Made by a program: the position numbers and the translations under genes | The notes under the pieces: generated by a model | Databases searched by the model: none | Seen by the model: only the letters and a program-made list of their open reading frames with translations | Told to the model about the DNA's origin: nothing | Assembly (NCBI GenBank): GCA_036362985.1 | Contig: JAYGXS010000004.1 | Coordinates: forward strand, 8,499,583-8,563,582 | Length of the DNA stretch: 64,000 nt | Reading direction: 5' to 3' | Source of the DNA: Ligula intestinalis | Taxonomy: Eukaryota > Platyhelminthes > Cestoda > Diphyllobothriidea > Diphyllobothriidae | Part shown: piece by piece, positions 10,282 to 49,755 of the stretch | Layout of the letters: each line of letters begins with the position of its first letter | How positions within the stretch are numbered: the first letter of the stretch is position 1

Positions 10282-11390
10282 ATGAAAAAACTTTGGGTTG
10301 CCTCAAACGCGAACCCCACAGGCTGTGGTACAGTTATGCAGCCCCTAGCTCCTACTCCGGTCGACGCACAACTTCCAGTTCAACCCAAGGTTCCCATTCC
10401 ACCTTCGCTGCGTCCGAATTTTCCCACCAACCAGTTCAACGCTATACAGCCTGCTGGCGTGCAGTTCATGGTATCTAATACCAAAACTTCCCATCCTGCC
10501 CTCAGAGGCACAACAACTTCAAACTTACAGAGTTCTCCCTCTGCTTGTCTTTCTGACATCTATGTGCCTTCGAGGAAGCGAAGTGATTTAACCACAAGTA
10601 CGCCATCGACGCAGAATGCTCATCTGCTTGATGCTCTATTGGTTGAACCACAGATGGCTGGTCGCAACCTCATGCAACCTGGGAATCGCAATCCCAGGCA
10701 AATGACAGGAGACGTTCTAGTCTGTCAGGATCCCAGTTCTTCAACATCTGGAAGGAATTCCATTCCTGCTCAGAGATCAGAAGCTGCATCTCAGCTCGTC
10801 ATCTCTTCAAGAAGTCCCTTGCGGAGGTCACCGGCATCGACAACGGTGTCCGAGGTCCACCACCAGCCGAACTCTAGTGCGCGACAAGTTTCATTTACTT
10901 TGCGCGAATTTAGCGACATCTCTGTGCAGGGTCTTGCGCAGGCTGACTACTTAAATCAACAGTCCAGGCTGCGTTCTTCCGGTAGCTTTCCGATTGTCCG
11001 ATCCCCAGGTCTTCCAACCCTAACTTCGCAGCCGGTCACATCTTCCAGCTTACTTCAAAATGTGCACCAGTCGACCCCAAGAATAGCCCCTCGAGCCAGT
11101 TATACTCCTCCTGTCGACTATCACCAGAATTCCAAAGATGTTCTAGAACTGCTGGCTTTGCAAAGTCAACAATTGAAGGAGCAGAAGCAGGAGATAAATC
11201 CAGCGGCACTCTTGCAACTGGCTCAACTTGAAAAACTTCGACAAACCTCACCTAATCCCACGGACGTGTTTTCGGCGATGGTTACACTCCTGACCAACGC
11301 GCTTACCCAGGGCGGTGCGCCTAGTAATACTGAATTGACTGGCATCGAAGACCAAACCTCGAGGAAACAAAGCAACTCTTTGAAGACGGG
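10282..11390 (+). CDS. KDM3: KDM3 exon 1 (residues 1-369), disordered N-terminus
   Basis: This is the first coding exon of the proposed gene. The ATG at 10282 has G at -3 and A at +4, and an in-frame TAA at 10270 closes the frame upstream. A second in-frame ATG lies at 10339. The donor is GG|GTAATT at 11391, leaving two bases that pair with the single base opening exon 2. The protein is rich in Ser, Thr, Pro and Gln and has no recognised domain. It contains one LXXLL motif (LDALL, residues 116-120) and a Gln/Leu-rich, probably helical stretch at about 286-322. Linking it to the KDM3 gene depends on a 6.1-kb intron and matching phase, so it is less certain than the C-terminal exons. Confidence 0.65.
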
Positions 11391-23300: not shown

Positions 23301-26300
23301 CTTTTGAAGTGTCTCCTGCCTATTCGCTTCTGTCAACAGAGTAGGCCAATAAGGTGAAACGCCGGCTTTAGTGCTTGAAATACTGTCTCGAGCACGTTGC
23401 ACGCACGTGCCTAGATTTGTTGCCTGCAAGAACTGTAGGAAATCCAGAGGCCAGGCTATCGTACGAAAAATATTCGAAAGACTCCCTCTCTGAGTCATGT
23501 TTAATGGAGGTCGTGGTGTGTGCAAGGAATCCACTAAAAAGCTGTTCGGTGCTCTAGGCCGCTTGCAGGAGGTCGTCTTTCCCCCCCCCCCCCCCCTTGA
23601 AGCTCGGTTGTGGCACCCGTCCAGGTTGTCTTCTAGCGACAATCAGTCATGAAAAATTATTGCCTATAGAGCCTAGCGAGACTAAAAAGACATTTCCCAG
23701 CATATTTTTCGGGTATTCTAGAGAAAACAGGACACTGCTATTTTGTCCGGCAACCAGTTCAGGTTAAGGAGCGCCCTTCCCACGTGATCTCAATCCCATG
23801 AATGGCGGCTTATTTGTCTACCCTAGTACCTCGCAAACTTTATTAACCCGTAATGCGCTCAACAGGCCGCATTTATATGTCAGTACAATAAACTCCCGGA
23901 ACAGCCCCTGACACTATTTGCAACCAGCAATGTAAGCCCCGTACACATTACTTGGTTAACCCACGAGAGTTCGACCGTAGTTTTTGACTAGGCCCACCGT
24001 CTGTTCCGCAGCAGGGTGGTGCAAGGGAAGTTGCTTGCGCTGGATTATAATGAGAGTAGACTTTCGATGCATCTACCGTCCTCTCTGTTCCACCCCCCCC
24101 CCGCCCACTTGGGCCCGGCGGTAGTCAAAATAGCCGGAGATGGGATCGGGCGCAGGTGGCTGGCGCGGCCGAAACCGCCCCTAAACGTGCCGCTACACCT
24201 GGTTCAGACGCCAGCTGAGTGGCGCTGCCATAAAGGCCACATTACGAAGGAGATATTTCAGCCTTCACGCAATACAGCGCACACCGCACTGACTACGCCG
24301 TCCATGTTTCCCGTCAGTTGGCATCCTCCCAAGCCACCAGGGCTTTTAGCTTCAAGTGCTCCAGATTGTCTCTAGGGTGGAAAATACAGTGAGCTGTCGA
24401 CCTCTATCTCTTCCCCATCCTGGCAGGCGCGCACACACATAAACCCGACCCGAGACTATTTATCATTATTCTTAGTCATTTTAAAGTGTTTTACCCGATA
24501 CTGATTTTCCAGTGACCCTCACAGCGGTGCATTTGAACAGCATTGGAAAGGGGATACCCAATTCCGCACTCATCTAGTCTGCGCTGTTGTAATTATTTGG
24601 TTCTTGCGTAGAACTGGTTACGTGGGTATTTAGTGGCAGTTTGGTTATAGGCTCTTGCGCTTTTTTTTTAACATTATCATCACCCAACTGCATTTATGCC
24701 TATACCTCTGTCTTTCAGTGGCTGTATTGTCACACCGGTCTCTCTGTGGCTGGGAGCTGCCGGCAGCTTCACAGGCCGAGGGCGAGACCTTCCTCCAGCT
24801 GAACAGTTGTTCGGACCTGGAGAAACTGAAGCCTTCTCTGAGATGCCGCGCCTGTCGAGAGGTCAGCCGAACCGGTCCCCAGCAGGCGATAACAGACGTC
24901 AACTCTGCTGCCTCCGCCGCCGCTGCTCGGAAGGTCAGCAACAATCGCCGACGCGGTCACAATAAACAATCCGCGACGACTTCCCACGTTTCGGCGGCGG
25001 TGACGGTGGATGCTCATCATAACGGCAACAATGGAGCTAAGCATTCTGCACAAAAGGCGGCTGCCTCAGCTGCGGCAGCAGTGGGCCAGCAAAACACCAT
25101 CTCCGTTTTCTGCCGGTTCTGGGGCTTTCGAAAGTAAGCGGCGCTCATCATACCCCCTGCACATCGCCTCCCATCCCCGACACCGCGCTATTCGCGTATC
25201 ACGTGCTTTAGATAGGCGCGAAGTAAAAAAAATGAACCAGTCTCTCCCCCTTCCGCCAAAGTGCTTCTCCAAGCACTTTATTCGCACACTAGTGCTTGCG
25301 AGAAGCGAAGCGCTTCCCTAGAGGGCAATTTCCTGCTCAACTGTCATCTTCAGCTAGCCACTCCGGTTGGGCGGACCGGCAAATTAGAACCGCTGAATCG
25401 GTTGCCGGTAGAAAGTTACCTCACTGCGCCGTAATGAATATTCGTGTAGCGTGTTTGAAATAATCCATCAGGGCTGTTCGGGTTCCTTGAGGTCAAGCCG
25501 ACGTGCTTCCTCTGTCCCCTGGTGGGAAGTGCACACAGCAAAATGTGCCACCACCGAGGCAATGACACTTAGCAGTGTGACACTTAGTGTGTAATAGATT
25601 GCAGCGATCTTTGTGCTGTCAGAAACACCCAGCATTTTTTTCGGAATTGACGGCAATGCCAATTTCTCTCGTCTCTTCACTGACCAACTTTCCCCCCTCC
25701 AGTCATGGCCGTTTAGGAGTCCCTTCAACACGTTAGATTTTAATGTATCACCATGTTTTGCTGCCGTTGCATTGCTAACAAGTGGCCCTTTCTCTTTTTT
25801 GCGGGATGCAATTATTGAGCTTATCTACCCTTACCTCTTTTTATTCCCCCAGGTTGGCCTACGATACCAAGGGCGTGCTCAGTCTGACGGACTTTTGTCG
25901 GACGGTTGAAGCCGACCGCATTGACCGATCACTCTGGTCCTTGCATCGAAACGGTGCGTGACGCGTCTTGTGCGGGGGCAAACGCCCCCGCTCCCACGGT
26001 GTTTGCTATTTTTGGTCTTGCGCACGAACAGAATTTTAATTATATCACTCGAGGCGGTTAGTAGAATCGATATTTGATTATTGCTGGCAGGCTTTTGGTG
26101 ACTTTCTCAAAGTCCTTCAACCAATAGCATCATAGCACCGAACACGCGCGTCTGGGGGCGGCAGATCTTGCTGCGTTGCAGTCTGACTCAGCAGACTCTG
26201 AGCAGTGCTAACAAACCCGACGCAATTCTCTTGCAGGACATCTGAATAACTTTGAAGTGTTTCGTAGTTGCCTTCTTTGTGCATCCGTAAAAAAGCATTT

Positions 26301-29300
26301 GATTGTCCTGACGCCCTCAATCATTAAAATCCCAGTTTGTAACTGCGAGCCAGTGGAACTGACTCATAACTTTGCGTAACGGAGCTCTCCAGAGGCAGCG
26401 AGAAGCCAAGGGTGGTGAATATCATTGCAGTATTTTCACTCGGCCGCGAATGACATCTGTGGGATGACAGGCAGTATACAGTGTATTAAAGCCAGCGTAC
26501 TCGAAAGTCCCTGGCGCCTGGGAGAAGGCGTTTGGCGTGTACTTAACGCCATCCATTGGGAGTAGTCGTCCCGGTCCCTGCCCGGGGCCAAATCCACTGA
26601 ACGCAGTGATAAATGGACCACATAGGCTTAGTATGGATGCTGTAAAGATTAATGATTGGGTTTATGCAGGTAGGCTAGTTTCTCCTCGCAGCGCTTGTGG
26701 CACCCATAATTCAAGTGGACCCACGTGTATACGCACGCGTGCGTTTGCCTAAATCCCCTAAATCGTAGGGTCTGGTTTTCGCGTCAGCCATAGGTGGTCT
26801 GCCCCACGGGTGCTATCTGGTTCGTTTGAGATAAAGGAACCGGCACGTACTTTTGACACACACGCTTAGGGGGGGGGGGAGGAGCTGAGATGTAGACCAC
26901 TCAGACGTGGCAAGAGTGCAGACGGCTCAGAAGAAGCCACCCTAGTCCTGACAAGCGGTAGTGGTTCTTTAAACGGCACACATTCTCTGCACTCTTTGAT
27001 TTCGTATCCGATTCTGGACCTTATGGCGGCTGTAGTTGACATTCCAGCGTCTTCCATTCTGGCTGAAATGACTTGGTTGTCTCCATACCCCCGACCCCTC
27101 CTCCCCAGGCCAGCAATTCCAGGAGTTTTAGACTGGTGCGGTCTATTAGTAGCACAGCGAGGTCAGGTTTTCTCAGTTGTTATCAGAACTAATCCCAGCC
27201 AGCTTGAGGTAGCTTCCGCGCCACCTGAAAGCCAAAACACGAACTGTTCTTCTTCTCTTCGTTTTTTCCGGACATCATTTGCCTAAGTGCGTCCCTTCTT
27301 GGTCGGTTTCAGTTTCACCACCGCTGGACCGCAAGAACGCCCTCCACTTTATCGCCCAGTTGGGTCCGACGGCGTGTCGTCTAATGCTCTCTGAGCTGTC
27401 CATCCTCTCGAGCGTGACCGACAGCCTCAAACGTCAGTGCCACCCCAGTAACGGCACAGAACCGGCCAGGGCAGTGGCCTGGAAACGGCCCGTGCAGGGT
27501 GTCCGTGAAATGTGCGATGTCTGCGAGACGACCATGTTCAACTCGCACTGGGTGTGCACTAAGTGCGGCTACTCGGTCTGCTCAGCCTGCTACTTTGCAA
27601 AGTCTTATGGCCCTCCGCCTACCCTAGTAACGACCTTGAGGACGACCAATAACAGCACCAACGGCCTTGGTCACTCACAGAACCCCGACTCGGATGCTGA
27701 CTCTTCGGTCAAAAATGGTGCGTCCCTTCCCCCCCCCCCCCTCTTGTTCTTATGTTATTTATGACGCCAGGCGTTTTCGCTTGTCTCAAACTTTCAGGAT
27801 AAGACAGAATCCTAAGACCGTTCACTAGTTTGGTTGCCCATCGTTGCACATGCTCGGTGTGATCATTGTTTTTCTTCATCCATGCTGGTATTTCCTATTC
27901 TAAATGCGGTCTAACAAAAGCAGTGGAGATCCGTACAAGCAGTTCGTAAGGAAAGATGACGAAAGCACGCCTAGACCAGTGCATGCTGCTCGGTGCCTTT
28001 TGAACGGCCCTTTTATAACCTTTAGAGGGTAGTAGATTTGGAGCACCCCGAATACCTGGAGCTACGTTCATGCAGTGCTGGTGTTTGGGGAAAGGTCTCC
28101 ACTCAGATCCCAAGGGTAGGGATACACACTTTGTGGGTTCGACTCCCATCGAGGCCGCGAATTTTCCTAAGTAGGGCCAACAGAATTAGGCAAATCTGCC
28201 ATAACCTCCTAACGATTAAGTGAGCCTAGTAGTCTTTTTGGTGGATTCTAGATGATTGCTTAGGAAAACCTGCTTGGGCAGTCAGCTTGCTGTTCCGTAT
28301 CGGTGGATTCCATGCGAGCGGTAAAGTTAAGCGGTCGACCCAAGAGCGTAGACTACATCCATTTTTTGAGGGTTACGAGTGTTAACCCCCTGATTAATGT
28401 GCAGTTGAGATAAACAAAAATGCAATGATATACAGACAGCATAAAATATAGTCACAGGATATTTTTTAAAGCAAAAGTCCAGTAGTGTGATACATTGAAA
28501 TCATCAAGTCCTGCAGCAAGTTTCGTCGGTTATGAAAAAGTAAGTAATCCATCTGCCGTTTGAACACCTTAACGGTATTCGATGCCATTATTTCGTTTGG
28601 GAGGGTGTCCCACGGTCGAATTACCCGCTGACTGAAAGAAGATTTGTGTGGATCTAGGCGTGTATATTCATGTTTGACCTTGTATGGGTGATCGCGCAGA
28701 TGAGTCATGTTTGTAAACTCAAATAAATCTTCGGGTTTCAGCGGACAGGAATGTCTATAGGACAGGATAAAAAATTAAGCTTAATCAGTCTGTCAGGATA
28801 ATACAGAGTCGTAAGACCGTCCACCGGTTTCGTTGCCCGTCGTTGCATCTGCTCGAGGGGATCACTGTATTTCTTCATGCTGGCATTCCGCATTCTAAAT
28901 GCGGTCTAACGAAAGTCCTGAAGATCCGCGCAAACAGTTCGGGCGGAAACACAATGAAAGCACGCCTGATCTATTGCTCGCCGTTCTGCCTTTTGCGCTG
29001 ATAAAATTATCGATCGAATACAACCAAGTCGCTGCCGCCACTATCGCGGGCCAGTTGGCCAAGTTCTCAGGGTCAGAACTGGCAAACAAAAGCTTGCACA
29101 TACTTCGGGTCATGTATTTGCGATTAGAATTTGATTTTTTTTCTATTCTGCAGTACTTAACTCACGAACTAGGCAGTAGACAGTGGAAAACTCGTTTTAA
29201 GCATCTACTAACTGCAGCTTTCCTTCCCCTCCCACACCCGTACACAGAGCCAACAAAAGAGGATTCATTGAGAATGGATGCGTCAAGTTCCGGCTCGATG

Positions 29301-32300
29301 AATGACGAGGAGAACGGCAGCTTCCGGCGCAGCAGCAATGCGGAGCCTGGTCGGTCCTCTTCGCCTGCCTCCTCCTCCTCCCACTTCCCCACGGCCCTGG
29401 TCGAACTGGGTCTGGATAATTACTCAATTCGGCAACCCTGGTCTACTTGTTCGGCTAGTCGTCGACCGCATGACCCCTCACGGCTCATGCTCACAGCCCT
29501 TCTGCCTTGTGGCAGCCTCCACGGTGTATGGCACCAGCTTCATCGGATCGCTGCCGCTTTGGACATTAGTCTGGGCTGTGATTGTAAGACCACCACTAGC
29601 AGCAGTACTACTACAACCGCCGCCCGCAATCAGCCGCCCTCCTGTCCTTCCTCGCCAGCTGGCAGCGTTGCTAACGAGGAGCCTGCGTCACCAGTCACTT
29701 CCACCAGTACCAGCGCGGCCACCTCGTTGGATCTCCTGGCAGAGTTGGCGCTTAAGGCATCGGACGCTACTAGTCCAGAGGACTATCACGCTGCCAACCC
29801 AGAGGTCGACTTATCCGCTGCATCTGCGCAACGTTCGCACTCTTCTTCTCTGTCCTCAACCGCCTCCTCATCGCCTTGTTCCTCATCCTCCTCGGTCATA
29901 AGACGGGGTGGCCCAGTGCCTCGAATGGCCTCCCGTGGGCTCTCCACTGCTGCCGCGGCGCAGTCCCAACGGCCCAGTGTCCTCTATCTGCCGGATCCTA
30001 ATTCGCCTTCCATTTTGGAGGCATTCCGGGTAGGTCTACTGGAATGTTTTTTTAGGGCTTCAAGGGTTTCCAGACCCCCGAAACAGTGAGATAGCGTGCA
30101 GGGGGGGGATGGGTTGTTTATGTGGTCAGGCTCCGTTTGTCCAGCATTGTTTCAGCCTACGCGAGTTGTTGTATCATCCACGGTTTCGTGCTGAAGATAG
30201 GGACTTGGTGCGTTCTGTCTTCTTCCAGCCTTGCCTCCTCTTCGCCCCTCCCCCGAGAAGGGTTTAACATTTGTAGAATTGTAGCCGAGCCGTGCTTCGA
30301 CGCCTGTGAAAAATGCGATCACGGGAACAATAGGTTTGATTTCCTGACGCTTCGGAATCAAACGGGGTTCCATCGTCGAGGGTGGGTATCAAGCTGGCGT
30401 TCTGTTGGCTCTGCGCCTATTGGTGCCGAGTGCCCTCTGGGGGGAGGGGTTCAATCGCCCGATTGAAGCTCCACCCCTCGTCGTCATTCAGTCATACCCA
30501 ACCCCAGGGGGAGTCGCCTCCCCCTCCTCCCAAGCTCAAACCCGCGACCTTATGAGTTAGAAGTTCAGCGTTCTAATTACTGCCTGACGGGCTTGTTGCC
30601 TTGCCGGTTTTCGATCGGGAATGCACATAATTGTAAATAGGCGCTGACTTATCGGATCCCCTTGTTTCTTTGTGCCTTGGAATTCACACTTGAGCTCCGT
30701 CAGCATCCACACAGCAGCTAAGGAGATAGGCAGAATGGCACTATAGACAAGGACAATGGAGACTGTAATGACCATTTCTAGCTCAATGGCTGTCATCAAT
30801 GGTCATTCTGGCCTGCCTCGTATTTTTCCGCTCCACCTTATCATCATAAATTACATGTCGGCATGCTGCGACTGCCTGCGAAAGATGTCCTCTACCTTGG
30901 CGCAATCCAGGTACCTAACCCGACCGAGCGCGTGTGAAGTGTCCCTTCAAGCTGCGGAAGGTACAAGGGGATACCTCAACCCACGAAGATGGGGCTGGTT
31001 AAACTCCCTATTAGCAAGCCCAGGCAGATGAATCTCCCTTCCCTGTCTCCGAGATGGCGATGTGAAACCTGAAGCCTAAAACGATAGCGGTTTATTTGCC
31101 GCTGCCTTCGCCGTCGTGCCTGGCTGCGTTATTACTTGGCACGCTTAATTGCTGCCCCCACCCACTGTACCGCACTTTCCCTTCTTGCTTCCACTGTGTG
31201 CACCCGCATGCTTGCGTGTGTGCCTGCCTTGCTGCTGCTGCTTCCCATAGGAGTCAACAGGACACAGTTTGCGCTATTCGTTTCGGTGTCGTCTCTCTGA
31301 CGTGTCTGGGTCTCTGTCTGGTATGCATGCGTCGCTGCTGCCGCGTACTTTTGCGCAGTCGTGTGCGGTCGCGCAGCGGCTTGTAGGCGTCGACGGTGGC
31401 GGCGGCACACCGCACTGTGCTTCTGTGTGCGTGCGTGCTTGCGTGTGTGTGACCTTACCGACACGTGTACACACGCACCTTAAAAAGGCGAGGTGACAGA
31501 CGACAGCACAACAGCGAGCCAGCTGGCTCGAGCAGTCAGGACTTGCGACCGCGTGTACTGGCTGGCGGACTCCACCACGTTAACGCGCGTACGCTTGTTT
31601 ATTGTTTTCTCTCTGTGTGAGATCCCGGTCTCTGTAGTCGTCGGCCCTCTCCTTCTGGATTGTTTTGTCAGAAGACAAGCACTGGAGTTGCAATTAGAAG
31701 TGGGACTTTATGACTCACGCAGAAGCAATCGAATGTACTTGCGTGTACTTGATACGACCGTGATCATGCCGGTCTAAATGATGCCACGGACGGTACCGCT
31801 ACACGCATGGCGATTAGAGGCAGTAGATCCGGACAATTCACCCATTCTCTTTTCCAGCAAGGGAGACCAACAATCGAAGGTCCAAGAACTGCTTCCATGC
31901 CCTGAAGAACAGTGTCGAGCCAAGTCTTGAGTTGCCCACCTCTTCGATGTCTCCAGGTGGGCTGCGGCGCCGGATCGAGGACAGTGTAGCAAAGTTCTTG
32001 AGGCGTACGACGGAGGACGTGCCCAAACCACCTCAGTCGGCTTTCTTGCATAGCCTGAGATATCCTCGCAATACTGTCACAGTGAGTGCGGACTGCGTAA
32101 TTGGAGACGAAGTCGGTACACTTCACTCGAAGGGTGGTCCTCAGGCAGCGGTGCTCAAATACCTCCAGTAGTCTTCGCTCATATTCAACACACAAAGCCC
32201 AGCATTCATACCCATAGAGGGGGATTGACGGATGAATGCACGGTTTACACGAATCTTCGTGGCGATGGAAACGTTGCGTCGGATCCATAGACGCTTTCGG

Positions 32301-35300
32301 AGTATTGAGAAATGCTGGCGAGCAGCATCGATGCAGGAGACAATATCGTCTTTACTCTGTTTATTTGGTAGCAGCCTGTCCATTTCTTCAAGTTATTGGT
32401 CATGAATCCCCAGGAATGCCTTCTCCTGGTCAGGGATGCAGCTGAAGACTACTTAAGTCTTCCTTGTATTTATGGATAAGCCAACCGACGTAGGTATCTC
32501 ATTCGTCCTATCTGCGCATGACTCAGACTATCGTACCATTACCTATGATTGAGGATTCCCGGTGGAATCCGAAACGTCAGAAAAATAAAACTCTTGTTTC
32601 AGTGGTCGCATCTTCTTCTGAACTACAGACTGTACAGATCACCAAAGCTTGAGGCTAGCAGGGTGTTATCATCGGCGTCCGGGTGCAAGCCCAACACCGT
32701 CCTCTTAACGTAGGGCCTTCCAGTCAACCGGCGTAGTTATAATGGAATGGGCGACGACACAGCCTTCTTGAACGCCAAACCACATAGCAAACTGTCAGCG
32801 AAAGACATCCAGTTGGCAGCGGCGGCCTCTGTGGTGTCTTGACTTTGTCTTGACACGTTCTACCATTGAGCTACGAGGTTTTCTGTGCGCCGTGAATTTA
32901 ATCACACTTGGATTGATTTACCCGCGCAGCTATGCTGATTTCCATCTCTACACCACTCAGTCTAATAATTAGCATTGTTTTTCTTTTCGTCCAGAATGAT
33001 GTCCACTTATTCTTGTTTGTTTTTGTCCTCTTCTCTTCCCCGCCCTCCCCAATTTAGCGGTCATGGGAGATTAGTCAGCCGGTGGTGATATCCAACTGTC
33101 TGAAAAACTTCAATACCGTTCTCTGGAGTCCTCGCGCCCTCAGCCGCGATGGTGATTCGCTTGCTGCTGTCGTTGTCGACTGTGAGACCAATCTCATCGT
33201 CTCCCGTCTACAAATGCGTACCTTCTGGGAGGGCTTCGAGTCGTCTGCAAGTAAGCCCTACCACCTTCTGCCTCTAACTCTGTTCTCCCCCCCCCACTGT
33301 GCACAATTTTTCGGGCAAAAAATATGTTGTCCTGCACTGTGGAGAAGTCAGTAGCACTGAAGTAATTACTTTCAAGGAGGTGGAAACAAAACGCTCGCAA
33401 TTGCACCGGGTCGCGTTTTCAATCCCTTGAACTTCAATCACAATTTTTGCTCGCAGTCCGGAATCGTTACTGCAACGTGGCTGAGTTAGACATGTCTACT
33501 TTTTGATGTGTGGATGTCATGTTGAACGGCAGACTGGCCGAGTTGCGGTCCTGCAGAACGAGGCGTTTGTTGTACCATTCTTTTCGATGCCCGTTTTTTC
33601 ACGTGGTGACCCCCTGAAAATGGATATGGCTAGCTGATGACGTTTTATAAACCAGAAACGGTCATTCCAGTCTGTCTCCTGGCTTTGTTGGCAATGTGAT
33701 TTATCCAGCCAAACCGCCGGTACAGGCTTGTGTTGGATGGTATCAAGCGGGACACCTGATTTCAATTTCCGGCAACATTGCGCTTATAGTACCGTTCTGA
33801 TGATTTGCCAAAACTACATCTCTCCGGTCGTGTGGTTATTACCGCTGCCTCAATAATAAATTATTATATTTAGCACGCATAAGGGTTCCTTTGCTGTAAA
33901 TAACAATATATTGCCAAACGAACTAGCTGTGATTGTGAACATAGGTCGTGGCTAAGGTCCGAAACGAGGAGAGGATGTTAACAGGCGCGAAGATCATCGG
34001 TGCGGGGGCGTATTTAACAGTCGATCAAAATCGTGCGATTGTGCCAATCTGAGAGTTTCAGTCTGAAAAAAACACAGAAGGTAGTATCTGTCAAGTTCTG
34101 TCAGGCGGACCGTTTTAAACGTCCAGCATTTTGAGTGTTCAGACGGCCAATGGGACTTTATGCCTTCCGAGGTCAAGTGCTAATTTAAATTTGCATATCC
34201 ATGTCCTAGTTCTAGTGGAAGCTTACTCCAAAGGAAAGCATAGTCAGATGCTAAAAAGAGCAAGCGTTTAGATGTAGAGAAAGGAGGCGAAGGAATTATG
34301 CATGACGTACGGACCAATATACTCTAGTGTGAGAGCATCAACACGTGTGAAACAGGAAGCAAAGCCAGCTTCCAGTCTCGACGCCGTATTCGTCATCCGA
34401 GAGTCTGCCTGTTGTCCCGCAGTTGTCCTTCGCTGACGGTTGTCTCACCATCTAGTACCGATAGACGCACCCGCCAGTGTTGGCCGCCCACAGTCTTGTG
34501 TGTGTCGTAGGCCACAGTTGGATCAGGAATCCCCGCCAGAATCCAAACTGGGAGTAGTTGGGAGACGGAGAAAAGCCGCCACCTCGACCAGCTTGAGCCA
34601 CAGGTCCGCGGGAGTGAAGTGGGTGCCTGTTCGGGAAATACAGGCAAATAGATGCTGACAGTCATGCTGAGAAGCGTCGCAGTCGTGATAGCAGTCGGGT
34701 GTGGACGGGTCGAGTCGGTGTTGGTACTGGCGAAGGAGCATGCAGTAGTCACTGCGTAGCTCCGCCAGGGTACAGTGCGTGACCCTCGGGAGATGTCGTT
34801 CCGAGGCCGCAATCGGAGGTGGATAGCCACCCAAAAGGACCGGGGGACGGAAACCTCGTTTCTCCTCGACAACAACTCTCGGGTGGAGACGCTGGAAGCC
34901 TGTATTGGTGGCAGAGCTATCAACAGTCGTCGTCTTTCCCTGGTGTTGTTGTCCCGGTCCTGGGCGGCAGTCTGAATGACGGGAACCGTGCCCCTCCCCC
35001 CTCTTCCACCGTGCTACCGGCGTTGTCTCCCCCCTCCTTACATCGTTTTGTGGTAGCGTGTGTGGGCTTATTCGACCCCGAAAGCGGGCTGCCATTTTAG
35101 TAGTAGCTGTCTCTGTGTTGTGCTGTGCAAAGCGGCGCACATCTGAACGTCGCTGTTTCACACACACAGTCTTCACTCCTGCGTAGGCCGCCGGCATGCA
35201 TTGTCCGTGGGGCGGTGACTGTACGCCCAGTCAAGCTGCTTCTCACCATCCCGATCCCACAAAACCACTGGCAGTGTGTGTGTGTGTGTCCACGCATGTT

Positions 35301-38300
35301 TTTGTACATCCCTCTGCGTTGTTATCTTGCGCCCACCATAGACAGCGCCTTGATTCTTAACTTAGCATAGCGACTTGTAATATACGGTGAAGTGGAACCG
35401 ACAAACCACAACGGGATCTCCAGCGACCATCGTCGCCACAGGCATTCGAATTCTTCAGGACACCTGCAGCCCGAGCCGAAAACACACGCTTCGCTGACGT
35501 TCCGTGGTTGCTGCTACCGTTTACCTGCCTGATTATGGGCGACTACTGCATGCTGGCTGTCCGTGTTGCCACTAAAGTACACGTAGCACATGCCGACTAT
35601 AGGCGGGTTTAGGGAGGCGGCTGTAATGTACTTAGATAAAACGTGTTTATGTGCACGCGTTGATTCTACGCACACACCCCAGTCTCTCTCTCTCTCTCGC
35701 ACACACACTTGTACCGCAATGGAATTTGCAACCACGTACGCCGACATTAGTTCTGTGCCATCGAAGGTGCAAGAACCATAACAGTTTAATTCTTGCTGGC
35801 AGTGTCTAACCAACCTATACCGGTGAACCGGCGAACGCAGTATTGATATGGAGTGTAACCGACAAAGAGAAAGGAGATTGGAATGGCCATTTCTGGCTTA
35901 CTAGCCGTCATCAGCCAACCATACCCAATCCCAGGGGGTAGCGACTCGCGAAACTCGAACCCGCTACCGCTGGTCTTTGAATACAACAATCTACCACTGC
36001 ACGACGTGCTCATTGTTTTTATCGGTTGCGATCGGGAATATTATTATGGTAGGGGGCTCACTGATCTGTTTACAGAACATCCTCGTCCCGTGTTGCCTTG
36101 GAGCTCAGTTTCGAGTCCTAGCAGGCGGTCGCAAGGCAACTTGTATTATACGATGGAGTGGAACCGATAAAGGCAAGGAGACCGGAATGGCCATTTCTGG
36201 CTTACTAGCCATCATCAGCCAGACATGCCCAATCCCAAGGGTGGCAACCACCAAGATTCGAACCCGTGAACTTTGGTCATTGAGTACAACAGTCTATAAT
36301 TGCACCACGGGCTTGGTGTCTTCTTCTTCTCCTCTTCTTCTTCTTCCTTCTGCTTCTTCTTCTTATTCGTCTTCTTTTCTCTCTCTTCTCCTCTCTCATT
36401 CACTAAAAAGAACTCCTGCCAATAGTGACCGTGCCTTCGAGCGTCCCCAACTGTGCGCATGTGGTTTAAAGAAATTGATAAAATTGACAATTATTGTTTT
36501 AGCATCCACGTGTAATTTTTACCAGTTGTTATATGCCGCTTGTCTTTCCACCAGTTGTATCCCTGCGCACATTAGTTTTCTCTGAAGGGAAGTGGTAGAA
36601 CAAATAGTTTTCTTTTAAAGCCAGGCTAAAGCCTCTTCCCTTCCTCTTCCCTTCGCTTACTGACTCACTGTTCATCTCCACTTCCTTTTTATGTCCAGAG
36701 CGGAATGCCTCAAAGGACGGGAAGTTGCAGAACTTGAAGATCAAAGAGTGGCCGCCTGCCGATGACCTGACCGAAGTACATCCGGAGAGGTTTGCTGACA
36801 TCATGTCAAATTTGCCAATACCGCAGTACACCCACCGGGACGGACAGTTCAACATGGCTGCCCGCCTGCCCACCTTCTTCGTGCGTCCTGATCTTGGTCC
36901 GCGGTTGCATATTGCTCAAGATCTGGCCGGTGAACCTACGGTGCGTTTCGGACCCTTTCCATCGCCTCTACATCTTATCCCACCTCTGTTTTTGTTTTGC
37001 ATTTAATCTGTTCTTCAGTGCGATCCTGTGACATGTATATCCCCACTACTTTGTCTTGGCTCGTAAGGAGACATTTTCATGAGGGACCTTGGGGCATTCG
37101 GATACAGGCGGGGTGCTCAGTAGCCGCTCGGATTGTTTTTTTCGAGGCTGTCTTCTTAAGCTCTTGGGCTCACGAATCTAACCATAAGGCGGCCGCCATC
37201 TTTCGATTGAAATATACTGACTTCATCTCAAAGGAGAGCATCCGTACTCGCTGCAACAGTAACGCGAGGACAGCTCAGGCCATCCAAGAAAGACAAATAA
37301 GGTGGTTTGAGCACACTCTGCGTCGTACACCTCACAATATTTGCTATGCTGCCCTCGATCCGGCGCCGCAGCCCACCTGGAGGCGTCGAAGAGGAGGGCA
37401 ACTCAAGACTTGACTCTACACGGTCTGTCAAGACGTGGGAGCGGATCATGGACCTTCGGTTTTCCGTGAATGGGTGGAGCTTTCCAGATCTGCTGCCGCC
37501 AATCGTCATGCGTGGACAGGTACCGTCCTTGACGGCAGTGAGGCCGGCTAGATCAGGCATGATCACAGCCTCAACAACTATAGTTATTGCAGGTGGTGAA
37601 GAAGCAGTTATCCTGGGGAAAGTAGTGCTGCATTGTCCTTCGTTCCGAATCGTTTCATTGAAGACACTTGCCCCTGCAATCTTCAGGCCCGGTTCCTTAG
37701 GGGAAGAGCAGAAATTATACGCCGGGCGGAAAGACTAGTTTATTCTCTACAGAAGGAAGTTGAGAATAGGTTGGAGAAAGTTGACTGTCAGACGAGTGCA
37801 CAACCACTAGTGAGAAGGCCGATGTCAGAAGTGTGGGAGTGTGGTAGTCATCACAAGCGCCTTCAGCGAGACCATGTGTGAGTCAGCCTTAAGGAGGTGA
37901 TCGGCTGGACTGGATTGGCGTCGGCCCACAAGTGCGCACCTGATACCAGTCGCGAAAGGTTGAATTTTGCAAGGGGGTGTGGACCACTACACATATGTTT
38001 AGGATTCGAGCTTTCTGCGGGCCGGCAAGGTAGGTCCCATTCGATGGTGAGCATCATTCTCATCATGCCGCCGGGGCTGTTGATGTTTAGATCCGTTCGC
38101 TACCGCATTAGATGATTAGTACCGCTCCATTGCCCGTTACCCATGTCAAAGGACATGCATCGTCTTATCGGAATTCTTTATCTTGCCGATTGATTGGTTG
38201 AGGTGCGTTCAGTCTGAGGTTTATTGCTGACGCCAGCACCCCTTTCCTCCTTTCGTAATACACAAATTCGTATGCATATTCCGAACTCTGTTTATTTTAT

Positions 38301-40525
38301 TTTCATTTACAGGTGGGCACGATGAATCTGCGAGTGGATGTGACTGATGTCTTGAACATTTTGATGCATGCCAGCCCTTCCTTTGAGCCCCGCGACTCCA
38401 CCAAGGAGAAGACCCCCACAGCGATTTTACAGTCTGTGTTGCGTGACGCCGGGCTGGACTCCTCCTCGCAGCCGACTGGCTCCTGCACTAATGGCAAGAC
38501 CGTCCTCGCCAAGGGTAAGCTGCTTGCGCGTGAGGGTAGCGTTGGTCTGGTAGACTGAAATGGCCATTTGTGGCCTATTAGCCGTCATCAGCCAACCATA
38601 CTCAATCCTAGCTGTTGCGGCCAGTTGTTTCCAGTGTGCCATCCACAAAAAAATATGAAGTCAACTGGAACAAGGCGTTTGCACACCGATGTGAAAATCT
38701 GACTTTACTTACTGCGTTGTCTCTTTCTAGTGAGTATATCCAGGAGAGAGTTATTTTATCTATGCTGACGGGCTTGGGCACTGACTCCGCATGCTGGTTT
38801 GAATCACACCCCGCCCTCCTTCCGCTTGATAGATGGCCTGTCAGTCAGTTCTCCTGCTCCCTCACTCACCGTCCCGGTTAAACGACGGCGCGGTCCTTTA
38901 GATGCAGTAGCATGCTCTGCACTCCACGCCATACCCATACTTTCGGCACTCCGTTGTTTTTGGGTCATGCTAATGACTGTTTTGATGCCTATCTAGCGTA
39001 AACAACTGCGTATTCGCAGCCTGTTGTGTCACTGCTGTCAGTTATGTCTGTTGGACGACTAGCAGTTTCTAGTTGGCTTTGATAGTTGTTTGATACTTTT
39101 TTTGGCTGGAATTGTTGACCGTGTCTTCCGGTAAAGTGTGACCAAGCTAACCGCTCTGGTTTGGTCGTCGGACCGTCATGTCGTCAGGTTTTCTATCTCC
39201 TAGCGCCCATGCCGATCGATGACTTCCAGTGAGTTTTGTTTCGTATTAACGACACTGATGGCTTCGTTTCCGTGGTTTCATATAGTTGTTTCGTCAGTTT
39301 CAAAACAGCCAGCCTTATCCTTCAGCGGCAAGAATCACCATATACACAGCAGAAAAGTGGTAGGCCTAGGCAGATAGTATTGTCGGCAAAGATAAGGAAG
39401 CCTGAAATGGTCATTTGTGGCTTATTATCAATGAGTATCAATATTTCCCGATGTAAAGCGGCAAGACAGCCAGCTCGTGGCTCAATGGTTAGAGCGTTAC
39501 ACTTCTGAGCAGGAGGTTGCGAGTTCGAGCCTTGGGTGGTGCACCACTTTCGCTTGGGTATGACTGGCTGATGACGGCTAATAAGCCAGAAATTGCCATT
39601 CCTGTCCCCTTTTCCTTTGCCTATATTACTGGCCGCTATGTGGCTGCTGTCAGGGTTCAAGAAATGAGACCCAAGGCAGCGTAGGACAAGTGAGTTTCGT
39701 TAGCGATCGGTTAACATTCATCAACGAGTACTAGTCCCTTAAAGCCCCCAGAGCCTGAAGTAAAAGCTGTCTTATCCCCCACTGAGACATACAACCAAAC
39801 CTAGGCCGATGCACATGCTCCCTTACCCATCCTCAATTCAGTGGTGCGATTTGGCTGAATTTCTGGCGTCGTAAAATCCAGCTTCGCTAATCTCTCCAAT
39901 TCACCCTGCCATGCTGCTTCCTTTCTCATTTATGCAGATGTGCTTCTCCTTACCATGACAATACTACTTGCTTTGCAGGTTGGCCCGGTGCAATATGGCA
40001 CATATTTCAGCCCTCCGACCTGCGCGCTCTCCGTGAATTTTTGGTGAAACACCAGGTGCCTAGCATCCAGCAGGGTCGTGACGCTGCTGGTGACGTCATC
40101 CATGACCAGCGCATCTACCTGTCTCCAAAACAGCTTAGTCAGTTGGAAGCGGAGACTGGTATCAGGCCCTACACGGTGTTGCAGTATGTCGGTGATGCCG
40201 TCTTCATTCCTTCAGGCTCTGTGCACCAGGTAAGCCTCGCGGACCTAACCATTATGTTTTTTTGGACCCCACTCCTATTATAATGTATCCTTGAATTTTT
40301 TTCCCCTCCTAGGTTCGAAACCTTATGAGTTGCATCAACGTATCCGTGGACTTTGTTTCGGCTGAACATGTGTCTCAGTGCCTTGAACTGACAGAAGAGT
40401 TCCGTCGCCTTCCTCGGAATCATCCCAGTCACGAGGACAAGGTCCAGGTGAAGAACATGATCTATCATACAATAAAGGACTCTTTGTCTACCATTTTGGA
40501 AACCAATCGAAAACGGTCGGACTAG
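10282..40525 (+). CDS. KDM3: KDM3/JMJD1-family JmjC histone demethylase homologue, 12 coding exons
   Basis: Proposed join: 10282-11390, 17492-18674, 20439-21852, 24719-25133, 25853-25953, 27313-27717, 29248-30029, 33058-33250, 36699-36940, 38313-38514, 39979-40229, 40313-40525. The sum is 6510 nt, or 2169 residues plus TAG. All junctions are GT/AG and phase-compatible. KDM3 enzymes are nuclear Fe(II)/2-oxoglutarate oxygenases that remove mono- and dimethyl marks from histone H3K9. Family signatures seen in order are a C2HC4 zinc finger (residues 1475-1500, with [12 protein letters not shown] at its start), a PHDPSRLM segment in exon 7, the EWPPADD and FVRPDLGP motifs in exon 9, IWHIF and IHDQ in exon 11, and FIPSG-x2-HQV followed by NHPSHEDKVQVKN at the C-terminus. 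The first iron ligand is changed (NLRVDV in place of NLHLDV). The length lies between human KDM3B and JMJD1C as I remember them. The C-terminal half is secure; the N-terminal exons rest on phase and open frame only. Confidence 0.9.
11597..12175. mobile_element. Fold-back (long inverted repeat) element, MITE-like, in KDM3 intron 1
   Basis: Left arm 11597-11790 and right arm about 11995-12175 are near-perfect inverted copies. The outer ends are TACCCTAATGGCAATG on the left and CATTGCCATTAGGGTA on the right. The arms run inward through the cgtatatgggcggtattccg / cggaataccgcccatatacg pair to tgtgtgggtggtcga / tcgaccacccacaca. The central ~205 bp is not palindromic. The element starts 206 bp after exon 1. 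No clear target-site duplication is seen. Confidence 0.9.
13078..13260. repeat. Direct repeat unit, copy 1 of 2
   Basis: About 185 bp starting at acacacacgacagttccc, with gggcaccacgcgctccaaca and gagctgggcaagcaa landmarks, ending aaaacaggagtttagg. The second copy at 14262-14446 is in the same orientation and both are preceded by CA repeats. Confidence 0.9.
13411..13600 (+). repeat. Dispersed repeat shared with 24210-24375
   Basis: Shared blocks are gccataaaggccacatta, ttcccgtcagttggca and the aagccac..ggcttttagc segment. Both copies lie in KDM3 introns, in the same orientation. Confidence 0.65.
14262..14446. repeat. Direct repeat unit, copy 2 of 2
   Basis: Same order of landmarks as 13078-13260 with scattered substitutions and small indels. 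It is flanked on the left by a longer (CA)n tract. Confidence 0.9.
15125..15147. repeat. (TTG)n microsatellite
   Basis: Seven to eight uninterrupted TTG/TGT units. Confidence 0.85.
17492..18674 (+). CDS. KDM3: KDM3 exon 2 (residues 370-764), low-complexity region
   Basis: The acceptor TTGTTTAG precedes 17492 and the donor CAG|GTAACT follows 18674. The exon ends in phase 0, matching exon 3. The protein is Ser/Pro/Ala-rich, with a six-proline run just after the exon start encoded by CCA/CCG repeats. It also has poly-Ser and a nine-alanine run near 18030-18060. A more ordered Arg/Lys-rich helix-like stretch (ACRFALKKRLIQRYEADG) lies near 18475-18525. No catalytic domain is seen. The trinucleotide tracts could vary in length between individuals. 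Confidence 0.78.
18675..20438. other. KDM3 intron 2
   Basis: 1764 bp bounded by GTAACT and ACGTAG. No repeat or extra exon is recognised. Confidence 0.7.
20439..21852 (+). CDS. KDM3: KDM3 exon 3 (residues 765-1235), basic/Ser-rich then acidic region
   Basis: The acceptor is CACGTAG before 20439; the TAG itself is in frame, which supports the exon starting here. The donor is GATC|GTGAGT at 21853, leaving one base that forms CTG with exon 4. The first two-thirds is Ser/Arg/Pro-rich with many basic clusters suited to a nuclear protein. It is followed by two Glu/Asp-rich runs near 21535-21560 and 21615-21660. The end holds a possible metal site: C1187-x2-C1190 and C1212-x4-C1217. I cannot match this to a named domain. 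Confidence 0.83.
22188..22322. repeat. Poly-G tract, potential G-quadruplex region
   Basis: Several runs of 8-20 guanines on the sense strand of the KDM3 intron, separated by short spacers. Such runs satisfy the usual G4 pattern many times over. Open frames reading poly-Gly or poly-Pro here are artefacts. Confidence 0.9.
24020..24180 (+). repeat. Dispersed repeat shared with 360-500
   Basis: Same landmarks as the copy at 360-500 (ctggattata, gcatctacc, a C-rich run, ggagatggga). The tail cgggcgcaggtggctggcg also recurs at about 56918-56936. Confidence 0.5.
24210..24375 (+). repeat. Dispersed repeat shared with 13411-13600
   Basis: It contains gccataaaggccacatta and ttcccgtcagttggca blocks in the same order as the intron 1 copy. 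Confidence 0.65.
24719..25133 (+). CDS. KDM3: KDM3 exon 4 (residues 1236-1373)
   Basis: The acceptor CTTTCAG precedes 24719 and the donor AA|GTAAGC follows 25133. The exon contains C1278-x2-C1281 (LRCRACREV), resembling the Cys pair seen upstream of the zinc finger in KDM3 proteins. An Ala/His/Asn-rich insert follows, then the segment SVFCRFWGFRK, which matches the conserved CRF-x-x-FR block of the family. The last codon (Lys) is split with exon 5. Confidence 0.88.
25134..25852. other. KDM3 intron 4
   Basis: 719 bp bounded by GTAAGC and CCCCAG. Nothing else recognised. Confidence 0.75.
25853..25953 (+). CDS. KDM3: KDM3 exon 5 (residues 1374-1407)
   Basis: This short exon was found by following phase: it opens with one base completing the split Lys codon and reads LAYDTKGVLSLTDFCRTVEA, and only this frame is open across the exon. 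The polypyrimidine-rich acceptor is CCCCCAG and the donor is AACG|GTGCGT. It continues the family block that begins CRFWGFRK in exon 4, where KDM3 proteins have a similar KxGVL segment. Confidence 0.88.
25954..27312. other. KDM3 intron 5
   Basis: 1359 bp bounded by GTGCGT and TTTCAG. Short runs of G near 26870 and no recognised repeat. Confidence 0.7.
27313..27717 (+). CDS. KDM3: KDM3 exon 6 (residues 1408-1542), C2HC4 zinc finger
   Basis: The acceptor GTTTCAG precedes 27313 and the donor AATG|GTGCGT follows 27717. After the segment NALHFIAQLGPTACRLMLSE comes the family hallmark [20 protein letters not shown]. The zinc ligands fit C2HC4: C1475, C1478, H1486, C1489, C1492, C1497 and C1500. 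In KDM3 enzymes this finger is needed for demethylation together with the JmjC domain. The last part is Ser/Asn/Asp-rich linker. All seven expected ligands are present. Confidence 0.96.
27785..28350 (-). mobile_element. LINE fragment in KDM3 intron 6 (reverse)
   Basis: About 565 bp closely matching 63420-63985, and for its first ~200 bp also 28790-29010. In the third copy the adjacent sequence encodes the end of a LINE polyprotein, so this is interpreted as an interior piece of that element on the reverse strand. The frame is broken. Confidence 0.6.
28375..29010 (-). mobile_element. CR1-like LINE 3' end in KDM3 intron 6 (reverse)
   Basis: On the reverse strand it reads an EQMQRRATK-like block, then RLIKLN, then HEYTRLDPHKSSFSQRVIRP followed by W-D-T-LPNEI. 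These are typical of the C-terminus of CR1/Jockey-type reverse transcriptases. The 3' tail (28375-28500) also occurs at 59745-59985 and 60755-61010. The LINE ends about 240 bp before exon 7. Confidence 0.7.
29248..30029 (+). CDS. KDM3: KDM3 exon 7 (residues 1543-1803)
   Basis: The acceptor CCGTACACAG precedes 29248 and the donor CCGG|GTAGGT follows 30029. The frame is open upstream of the acceptor into intronic LINE sequence, but only the acceptor at 29248 keeps phase with exon 6. Conserved family elements are RPHDPSRLMLTALLPCGSLH and the Cys pair CDC near 29580, matching the PHDxxxLMPTQIIPG block of KDM3A/B. A long Ser/Ala/Thr-rich insert follows, then LPDPNSPSILEAF, equivalent to the LHDPNN-x5-IF segment just before the JmjC domain. 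Confidence 0.92.
30480..30830 (-). mobile_element. SINE family C, reverse copy or two fragments
   Basis: Reverse-strand landmarks: a B-box-like region (ggtcgcgggtttgag) near 30535-30550, and the body near 30755-30830 (ggccagaatgaccattgatg). The two parts are separated by unlike sequence, so this may be a rearranged copy. Confidence 0.5.
31764..32460 (-). mobile_element. LINE C-terminal fragment (RTE-like family, copy 2, reverse)
   Basis: The reverse strand encodes LLPNKQSKDDIVSCIDAARQ, then a YGYECWALCVEYERRLLEVF block, then RLRWFGHVLRRTPQELCY, then HRRGGQLKTWLDT. The last part alone is open over 174 codons, with a frameshift near 32200-32290. These blocks are well known at the end of RTE-like and related non-LTR retrotransposon polyproteins. 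It sits in KDM3 intron 7, antisense to the gene. Confidence 0.8.
33058..33250 (+). CDS. KDM3: KDM3 exon 8 (residues 1804-1867), start of JmjC region
   Basis: The acceptor AATTTAG precedes 33058 and the donor GCAA|GTAAGC follows 33250. The peptide begins RSWEISQPVVISNC and ends FWEGFESSASK, aligning with the RECWKQGQPVLVSGV and DFWDGFEDV blocks of human KDM3A as I recall them. It forms the N-terminal strands leading into the JmjC fold. Confidence 0.96.
33610..33760 (+). mobile_element. SINE family C, 3' part
   Basis: Contains atggctagctgatgacg, ataaaccagaaacggtcatt and ccagtctgtctcc in the order of the family body. The tRNA-like head is missing. Confidence 0.5.
34440..35000 (-). mobile_element. 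LINE tail (R1/Jockey-like family, copy 1, reverse)
   Basis: The reverse strand encodes ELRSDYCMLLRQYQHRLDPS, then a Cys/His motif ending DCQHLFAC, then a PADLW block. The same string of blocks is found at 42500-42900. It is the C-terminal end of a non-LTR retrotransposon polyprotein, lying in KDM3 intron 8. Confidence 0.75.
35800..36020 (-). mobile_element. SINE family C, reverse copy
   Basis: Reverse strand carries a B-box-like gggttcgagtttcgcgagt, then ggctgatgacggctagtaag and ccagaaatggccattccaat. The A-box region is diverged. Confidence 0.7.
36140..36310 (-). mobile_element. SINE family C, second reverse copy
   Basis: Reverse strand carries cacgggttcgaatcttgg (a good B box), ggctgatgatggctagtaag and ccagaaatggccattccggt. 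It is the same orientation as the neighbour at 35800-36020. Confidence 0.75.
36311..36400. repeat. Pyrimidine (CTT)-rich tract
   Basis: Imperfect CTT/TCT repeats, about 90 bp, next to the A-box end of a reverse SINE. Confidence 0.8.
36699..36940 (+). CDS. KDM3: KDM3 exon 9 (residues 1868-1948), JmjC region
   Basis: The acceptor ATGTCCAG precedes 36699 and the donor CCTACG|GTGCGT follows 36940. The motifs LKIKEWPPADD, PERFADIMSNLPIPQYT and LPTFFVRPDLGPRL are close matches to the KDM3 family. The next AG, two bases downstream, would break the frame, so 36699 is preferred. Confidence 0.97.
37150..37580 (+). mobile_element. LINE C-terminal fragment (RTE-like family, copy 3)
   Basis: Encodes FRLKYTDFIS, then QIRWFEHTLRRTPHNICYAA, then RRRRGGQLKT. 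After a stop and frameshift it continues VKTWERIMDLRFSV and PARSGMI. Same block order as copies 1, 2 and 4. Confidence 0.75.
37665..37925 (+). repeat. Dispersed repeat family A, copy 4
   Basis: Contains caatcttcaggcccggttcc, ttattctctacagaaggaag, gttgactgtcagacgagtgc and gaccatgtgtgagtcagcct. It looks like the best preserved copy in the window. Confidence 0.75.
38313..38514 (+). CDS. KDM3: KDM3 exon 10 (residues 1949-2015), iron-site exon with His-to-Arg change
   Basis: The acceptor TTTACAG precedes 38313 and the donor AAGG|GTAAGC follows 38514. The exon starts VGTMNLRVDVTDVLNILMHA. In KDM3 proteins this block is GTTNLHLDVSD, where His and Asp of H-x-D bind Fe(II). Here the His position is Arg (CGA, R1955) while Asp (D1957) is kept. 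The rest of the block aligns without a gap, so a misplaced splice site is unlikely to explain the change. Confidence 0.95.
38548..38620 (-). mobile_element. SINE family C, short reverse fragment
   Basis: Reverse strand reads ggctgatgacggctaatagg and ccacaaatggccatttcag. A similar short piece lies at 39398-39440. Confidence 0.55.
39462..39740 (+). mobile_element. tRNA-derived SINE (family C), best preserved copy
   Basis: The head has an A box TGGCTCAATGG at 39478-39488 and a B box AGTTCGAGCC at 39522-39531, spaced 33 bp apart as in tRNA genes. The body has tgactggctgatgacggc, taataagccagaaattgcc and cccaaggcagcgtaggacaa. Such elements are transcribed by RNA polymerase III and moved by LINE machinery. 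It lies in KDM3 intron 10, same strand as the gene. Confidence 0.85.
39979..40229 (+). CDS. KDM3: KDM3 exon 11 (residues 2016-2099), JmjC core
   Basis: The acceptor CTTTGCAG precedes 39979 and the donor CACCAG|GTAAGC follows 40229. It encodes WPGAIWHIFQPSD, the VIHDQRIYLS block and VLQYVGDAVFIPSGSVHQ. The final His (H2098) is the second iron-binding histidine of the family. The short loop between the blocks is Gly/Asp-rich, as in other KDM3s. Confidence 0.97.
40313..40525 (+). CDS. KDM3: KDM3 exon 12 (residues 2100-2169), C-terminus
   Basis: An 83-bp intron separates it from exon 11. The acceptor is CCTCCTAG and the stop is TAG at 40523. It encodes VRNLMSCINVSVDFVSAEHV and then NHPSHEDKVQVKNMIYHTIK, both KDM3 signatures. 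Relative to human KDM3A/B, which read HQVHNLYSCIKVAEDF, the second His of HQVHN is Arg and the Lys of SCIK is Asn. Confidence 0.97.
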   Translation, partial: VRNLMSCINVSVDFVSAEHVSQCLELTEEFRRLPRNHPSHEDKVQVKNMIYHTIKDSLSTILETNRKRSD

Positions 40526-48220: not shown

Positions 48221-49755
48221 GATTGTCCAATTCCCCGAGGCTGTTGTTCTTAAGGAACTCTTAAGGTTAAAATAATCTATGTCACCAGGTCCCAACGACG
48301 TACCAGCCAAGATTTTGAAGGAGCTCGCCAATGAGTTGGCCAAACCACTCTCTATGCTCTTCCAAACCTCCTTCGAAACCGGATGCCTACCAGTAGATTG
48401 GAGATCCGCGAGGATTACGCCGCTATACAAGGGGGAAGCCGGGTCTCAGCGAATAATTACCGACCGGTCAGCCTTACTGTTGCAAAATCATGGAAAAAAT
48501 TATCAAGCAACAACTTATGCAGTTCCTGGAACAAAACCATCTGCTATCGAATGCTCAGCATGGTTTTCGTAGAGGTAGGCCCTATGTTACAAATTTGCTC
48601 TACTGTTTAGAACGGTGGACTGAGGCAGTCGATAGTGGAAACTCAGTGCATGCTGTCTATATTGACTTCAAAAAGGCTTTCGATAACGTGCCGCACCACC
48701 GCCTCCTTTATAAAGTTAGCCGCATAGGAGTAAGGGGTAGGCTTCTTGCGTGGATAAAAAGCTTCCTAATCGGTCGCTCGCAAACTGTCCACATCAGCGA
48801 CAAACAGTCAGTCAAGGTTGAGGTTGAGAGTGGTGTTCCCCAAGGCTCCGTTCTCGGCTCTATCTTGTTTGTTATCTACATCAACCACTGTGTCCGCGAA
48901 CTGGATTGCGGTGTCGCCATGTTCGCCGATGATATAAAACTTTGGAGCGTAATTCGAACTGCAGCTGACAAAGTGCACTTACAAACAAATTTAAATAGAC
49001 TTCAGAAATGGTCGGCGGACTGGCTCTTACCATTCAATGAGAGCAAGTGCACCACCATTTGAGTCGGCAAATCCAGTTCTTCAAACGACACGGCTTACCG
49101 ACTGAATGACATACCATTTAAGGTATTGAACGCCCAGAAAGACTTGGGAGTCTGGATCACGCCCTCGCCTTAACCCTCCCTGCATTGCACAAAGGTAGCC
49201 AAGTCCGCGATGTCGATCCTATACCTCGTCAGACGAGCTTTTTCTACCTTCAAGGAAGAGTGCTTCACAAAAGTCTTCGGAACCTTCGTACGACCGCACC
49301 TAGAATCCGCTATCCAAGCTTGGAGACCCTGGGCCATGAAAGACATCAACATCCTCGAAAAGGTACAACGGTGCGCAACCAAACTTGCTATGGGGCAGGG
49401 CTTGCAGCCTTATGAAACACGGCTGTCGAATCTAAACCTCTTCCCATTGCGCTACAGACAGCTTCGGGGGACCTGATACTATCATTCCGCGTATTACGTC
49501 TTCAAGACTCCTGCCGTATATCAGGGGATTTGTTCGAATTAGCAACGACCACGAATCTGAGGGGTCATCCTCTCAAATTAAAGGTGACAGGGGCCAGGCT
49601 GGACGCTCGGAAACACTTTTTTTCTCAAAAAGGGTGGTCGGAGCGTGGAATGCGCTTCCTCCGGACGTCGTTATGTCGGAATCGCTAGAGGGTTTTAAGC
49701 GAAAAGTGGATCAATATAGCAGTGCCCGATGGTTCGGAACTGACAATCTACAATA
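48217..49755 (+). mobile_element. CR1/Jockey-like LINE: reverse transcriptase remnant
   Basis: Starts in the RT N-terminus (FPEAVVLKELLRLK, a stop, then MSPGPNDVPAKILKELANEL), shifts frame near 48430 and 48485, then is open for 190 codons (48490-49062). That stretch holds QHGFRRGRPYVTNLLY, YIDFKKAFDNVPHHRLLYKV, GVPQGSVLGSILFVIYIN and the catalytic FADD. After a stop come VRPHLESAIQAWRPW, ILEKVQRCATKLA and a VVGAWNALPPDVV tail, ending in (AAT)n at 49752. The element is 5'-truncated with no endonuclease, and inactive. Confidence 0.92.

Follow-up and report, generated by a model that had tools for sequence, protein, structure and literature searches.

In a 64,000-nucleotide stretch of the genome of the tapeworm Ligula intestinalis (contig JAYGXS010000004.1, C4:8499583-8563582 within a 644 Mb genome; hereafter the window), we identified a KDM3/JMJD1 gene in which arginine occupies the place of the first Fe(II)-binding histidine of the JmjC domain. 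The same arginine is common to every cestode sequence that was aligned, and two further residues that probably contact the co-substrate 2-oxoglutarate (2OG) are replaced together with the histidine. On the basis of the sequences, a structure prediction and analogy with known JmjC proteins, we consider it probable that this tapeworm orthologue of KDM3/JMJD1 became a pseudo-demethylase in the stem lineage of the cestodes and was retained as a non-catalytic scaffold or reader.

The substituted residue is encoded by CGA at 38331-38333 (+ strand), as read from the codon and placed by two alignments. The original prediction had reported this codon at the site of the first Fe(II)-binding histidine, and the codon indeed lies in frame within an exon that has AG and GT ends. 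The prediction had also described gapless flanks and a preserved partner aspartate and distal histidine, which agrees with our alignment of the flanks to the KDM3B and JMJD1C sequences; the aspartate (GAT, 38337-38339, +) and the distal histidine are both kept in 9/9 aligned cestode rows. The triad of these nine proteins therefore reads Arg-x-Asp...His, instead of the His-x-Asp...His of active demethylases. When KDM3 proteins of related worms and of other organisms were aligned, the first Fe-His column held Arg in all nine cestode rows (the window, Spirometra, Mesocestoides corti, Taenia crassiceps, T. solium, T. asiatica, Echinococcus granulosus, Hydatigera taeniaeformis and Hymenolepis diminuta) and His in 257 of the 257 other aligned rows, including 10 from trematodes. 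Of these genera, Mesocestoides, Taenia and Hymenolepis are members of the Cyclophyllidea and Spirometra is one of the Diphyllobothriidea, so the change spans two orders. A sequencing error or a private mutation of the window is ruled out by this distribution. In addition, when all six frames of the window were scanned for [NK]L[HR]x[DE] or [TM]NLxx[DE], six matches were obtained, namely the altered exon and five others that lack KDM3-like flanks, and thus no alternative exon with NLHxD was seen in the window.

The alignment used here contained 266 rows (265 of 274 proteins plus the window), each with a JmjC envelope that was required, with margins, to be 230-449 residues long. Nine proteins were omitted by length (P0018, P0033, P0034, P0038, P0039, P0077, P0166, P0167 and P0168). 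P0018, a partial Rodentolepis nana protein without the histidine exon, has Asn at the Lys site described below, the partial Echinostoma protein P0033 has Lys there, and the short P0034 contains NLHLD. The short P0039 gave an empty motif match, and no LHx[DE] motif was found in the short P0038 or in the plant proteins P0077 and P0166-P0168, which were too long for the alignment. These four plant KDM3-like proteins keep HQVRN, with Gln at the Lys site of P0077; they may also have an altered iron site, so the figure of 257 of 257 holds for aligned rows only. The 257 rows, picked by similarity, contain redundancy from many vertebrates and arthropods, their named members do not include human JMJD1C or Hairless, and the second and third protein searches are represented by the best 120 of 426 and the best 120 of 2065 matches; no monogenean or free-living flatworm is named among the matches listed, many of which are nameless. 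An earlier, smaller alignment (154 rows from 159 proteins plus the window, with six omitted for overlong envelopes) gave 142 His, 9 Arg, two gaps (P0018 and P0033) and one misaligned partial sequence (P0038) in the same column.

Descent of the window gene from the KDM3/JMJD1 family, which the original prediction had proposed, is well supported by comparison with known proteins. The best PDB sequence matches of the JmjC domain were KDM3B (6.1e-61) and JMJD1C (1.8e-58), the named proteins among the matches listed were mostly KDM3s, and the JmjC tree also placed the protein with KDM3. A zinc finger is present upstream of JmjC (27513-27593), as in the KDM3/JMJD1 family, and its pattern was common to all six proteins inspected (three cestodes, two trematodes and dog KDM3B).

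Beyond the iron site, the position three residues before the Fe-His, where the remaining KDM3s carry Thr and which is a probable 2OG contact, is Met in the window (ATG, 38322-38324, +). It is Met in eight and Val in one of the nine cestode rows and Thr in all 257 others, and the hydroxyl residue expected at -3 of an active KDM3 for the C5-carboxylate of 2OG is accordingly missing from the cestode rows. Ten residues after the distal His, the window has Asn (AAC, 40337-40339, +) instead of the Lys that is another probable C5-carboxylate contact; this SCIN for SCIK had been noted in the prediction as a deviation and proved, within the aligned rows, to be specific to cestodes (Asn in 9/9, against Lys in 255/255 others having a residue there). 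2OG enzymes are reported usually to grip the C5-carboxylate through a basic residue and a Ser, Thr or Tyr hydroxyl (PMC4233403), and the -3 position is described among the important ones, with Ser or Thr in most JmjC subgroups and a nonpolar residue in No66/Mina and two others (PMC2453528). We take the Lys at +10 as the probable basic contact because, between the Thr and query residue 260, no other basic residue in the core of KDM3 is fully invariant. No residue-level account of 2OG contacts in KDM3 was found in the literature, and for this reason both contact roles are given as probable. The HQVRN for HQVHN that had been listed as another deviation did not hold up: of 154 aligned rows, 123 have Arg and 28 have His at this position, so HQVRN is the majority and ordinary invertebrate form and was rejected as an anomaly.

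More broadly, 92 columns of the alignment are at least 97% conserved outside cestodes, and 18 of these are altered in all cestode rows. Seven of the 18 fall among the 14 such columns within query residues 68-98 around the Arg (p = 0.005, for a stretch picked post hoc with the data already seen). The stretch at query residues 69-75, in exon 9, reads GPRLHIAQD in the window and GPKMYxAYG outside cestodes; in all aligned cestode rows it is changed, with Lys replaced by Arg, one Tyr by His, the other Tyr by Gln or His, and Gly by Asp.

These features correspond to what is expected of a pseudo-demethylase, as the JmjC fold is predicted to be kept (structure prediction of the H. diminuta domain), the zinc finger is kept by sequence, and the first metal residue and two probable co-substrate residues are lost. 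With Arg at the first metal His, and Met or Val and Asn at the Thr and Lys that likely hold the C5-carboxylate, the domain would fail to bind Fe(II) and 2OG productively and would remove no methyl groups. We infer this inactivity because mutants of the same His lose demethylation: H1120A in KDM3A and H1560A in KDM3B are reported to abolish demethylation of histone H3 lysine 9 (H3K9) in cells (PMC3623819), and H1120Y serves as the inactive mutant in another study (PMC13149330). JMJD1A carrying H1120Y or H1120F is reported still to support gene activation induced by hormone (PMC4432656). By analogy with JMJD1A, which has this scaffold role that does not depend on demethylation, and also with Hairless, JARID2 and Epe1, tapeworm KDM3 would most likely act at H3K9-methylated or other chromatin as a partner-protein scaffold or as a reader. 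The original prediction had suggested "a reader or scaffold" in place of an active enzyme; its non-catalytic part is strengthened by the Arg common to 9/9 rows, the loss of two probable 2OG contacts and the failure to find a second KDM3 (see below), and for its reader or scaffold part the argument is one of analogy. A more specific version, which we put forward only tentatively, is that the apparently single KDM3 has become a metal-free chromatin protein in which the Arg fills the iron site and pairs with the Asp, and the pocket reads methylated H3K9, or binds another ligand, without turnover.

Several observations weigh against the pseudo-demethylase reading, and the first two of them also favour an alternative in which the protein has remained an oxygenase. 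Its metal site would then be unusual (Asp, His, water or some other side chain), and it would serve as a demethylase that is weak or different, or as a hydroxylase. The Asp and distal His are invariant in the aligned cestode rows, which makes weak metal binding possible. Although Hairless reportedly has no HxD motif (PMC2453528), a report with Hairless in its title names it a histone demethylase there (PMC9564370), and thus an altered iron site does not settle activity. The residue at -3 is nonpolar in the No66/Mina subgroup (PMC2453528), whose members are described as oxygenases (PMC8667043), and therefore the -3 change alone need not abolish activity. At the Lys site, whose co-substrate role is itself only probable, Gln is found in human JMJD1C (by alignment) and in plant P0077, and the important residues of JMJD1C have been called conserved (PMC4233403) despite this Gln at +10. 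The alternative candidates for the basic contact, Arg167 (98.8% outside cestodes) and the upstream Lys69 (100%), have not lost their basic character in cestodes, the former being kept and the latter replaced by Arg. Finally, enrichment of the five catalytic columns among the cestode-wide changes is marginal (p = 0.05). Against a surviving oxygenase stand the length and positive charge of the Arg, the two probable co-substrate contacts that are gone along with the His, and the inactivation of KDM3A and KDM3B by a point mutation of this His (PMC3623819), and we regard this alternative as unlikely.

Another possibility is gene decay, in which the active site was lost because the JmjC domain was no longer needed. 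Such a course would fit the long cestode stem branch in the JmjC tree (0.78) and the finding that 18 of the 92 highly conserved columns differ in every aligned cestode row. However, the frame of the JmjC exons is open, the domain is 92.5% identical between the window and Spirometra (which also suggests that the two worms are closely related), the altered residues are themselves common to two orders, and the distal His, the Asp and the zinc finger are kept, so decay appears improbable.

A further alternative is that demethylation is carried out by another KDM3 gene that is intact, with the window copy being a paralogue, and mammals are reported to carry active and inactive KDM3 paralogues together (PMC3623819). 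The check for such a gene, which the prediction had proposed, found none: a six-frame search of the 644 Mb genome with the JmjC protein gave four matches, all of them exons of the window gene, and a JmjC Pfam search gave, besides the window, eight matches at five places, both searches working exon by exon on an assembly that is possibly incomplete. Seven of the eight matches were read, and we take them to be KDM4, KDM5 (two places), KDM6 and JMJD6. The match on contig C1 (L005) was considered as a second KDM3 and ruled out, since its translation reads as JMJD6. The first iron motif is intact at the three places where its exon could be read, namely KDM4 (HVE), one of the two KDM5 places (HTE) and KDM6 (HQE), and the distal His is kept at all five places. 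Given these other JmjC genes, KDM4 or others could still demethylate H3K9 in the tapeworm. A single weak match to the JHD domain, the sole one reported in the genome, lies at C4:63413862-63413978 (-; L013). On these results we give the existence of an intact second KDM3 little chance. An error of sequencing, assembly or annotation, or a canonical motif supplied by an alternative exon, is hardly credible, for although the DNA-level reading comes from one genome assembly, eight further cestode species have the same Arg in their records, the splice sites and frame are clean, and the window holds no alternative motif with KDM3-like flanks.

Compared with known systems, tapeworm KDM3 differs from KDM3A and KDM3B (JMJD1A/B) in the Arg at the first Fe-His and in the replacement of Thr at -3 and Lys at +10. 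It resembles Hairless (HR), the fourth KDM3 member, whose Fe/2OG site is substituted and which was regarded as unlikely to work as an enzyme (PMC2453528), a likeness drawn from the description of Hairless rather than from its residues; Hairless is a vertebrate paralogue beside active KDM3s, whereas the one KDM3 that was found in the tapeworm is itself altered. JMJD1C is similar in that H3K9me1/2 demethylation by it was reported as not detected (PMC3623819) and in having no Lys at +10, but it keeps the Fe-His. In the human JMJD1C chain 2ypd, Glu replaces the metal Asp and Gln replaces the +10 Lys that the aligned KDM3s keep, and these substitutions may bear on the dispute over JMJD1C demethylase activity. 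Epe1 of fission yeast is likewise a JmjC protein, reported to oppose H3K9me heterochromatin non-enzymatically (PMC7192584), but it is a member of the Jhd1 subgroup, and the His described as missing from it is the second instead of the first (PMC2453528). Jarid2 is listed, like Hairless, as an unlikely enzyme (PMC2453528). In Arabidopsis, two of six KDM3 members reportedly no longer have residues that bind iron and 2OG (PMC3623819); these are likened to the tapeworm protein by that description and, unlike it, belong to a multi-gene family. JmjC pseudoenzymes are therefore already known (Hairless, JARID2, Epe1 and some plant KDM3s), and what appears new is the same loss across the sampled tapeworms, in the apparently sole KDM3 of a tapeworm genome, with trematode orthologues intact. 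We found no literature joining KDM3 with cestodes, and among reports on tapeworms and histone demethylases none concerned an altered KDM3 by its title or the start of its abstract; a Schistosoma mansoni KDM3 has been listed (PMC4159997).

The KDM3 gene lies on the + strand, where the KDM3 of Spirometra sp. Aus1 (P0040, 2077 residues, of the order Diphyllobothriidea) matched twelve collinear blocks at 10282-40522 by tblastn. Exon 1 starts with a located ATG (10282-11391, 80% identity) and is followed by exons 2 (17541-18680, 68%), 3 (20439-21869, 66%), 4 (24670-25134, 71%), 5 (25818-25952, 74%), 6 (27300-27716, 90%), which holds the zinc finger, 7 (29247-30029, 69%) and 8 (33058-33255, 92%), which lies upstream of JmjC and was also matched by other KDM3s; the ends of these eight are approximate. 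The JmjC domain is encoded by exon 9 (36699-36940, with the start at 36699 or 36701), which covers its N-terminal part, exon 10 (38313-38514) with the altered iron site, exon 11 (39979-40229), whose last two codons are those of the distal His (CAC, 40224-40226) and Gln, and exon 12 (40313-40525), which includes the stop codon. These four exons have GT/AG ends and compatible phases, and their frame is open to the TAG stop. The altered-site Arg is residue 1861 in Spirometra KDM3; the numbering R1955/H2098 used in the prediction depends on the gene model and was not reproduced.

The window also contains a short interspersed repeat with the tail GGCTGATGACGGCTAATAAGCCAGAAA, seen at 39480-39610 and at 4891, 35890, 36194, 38567 and 44111; the tail gave six matches with up to three mismatches, with none expected. 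The copy near 39480 starts like a tRNA-derived short interspersed nuclear element, and ARAGORN listed no tRNA in the window. Open frames at 48457-49062 (+), 31764-32351 (-) and 37228-37734 (-), two of which lie inside KDM3 introns, presumably represent fragments of long interspersed nuclear elements.

KDM3 proteins are known as H3K9me2/me1 demethylases (PMC7280979), and Drosophila Kdm3 is reported to prevent cryptic production of Piwi-interacting RNA (PMC10081847). Flukes likewise lost Piwi (PMC8191739) yet kept intact KDM3 residues, and thus the loss of Piwi alone does not explain the KDM3 change. At least three cestode records label the protein lysine-specific demethylase 3A or 3A-A, and such names call for caution. 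JmjC inhibitors that act through iron binding should miss tapeworm KDM3. If the metal-free reader of methylated H3K9 proposed above is correct, tapeworms would be animals without any KDM3-type erasure of H3K9me1/2. Tapeworms, whose apparently sole KDM3 has a dismantled catalytic site, provide a natural separation-of-function experiment, in which the remaining role of KDM3 should be non-enzymatic and no catalytic-dead mutant is needed.

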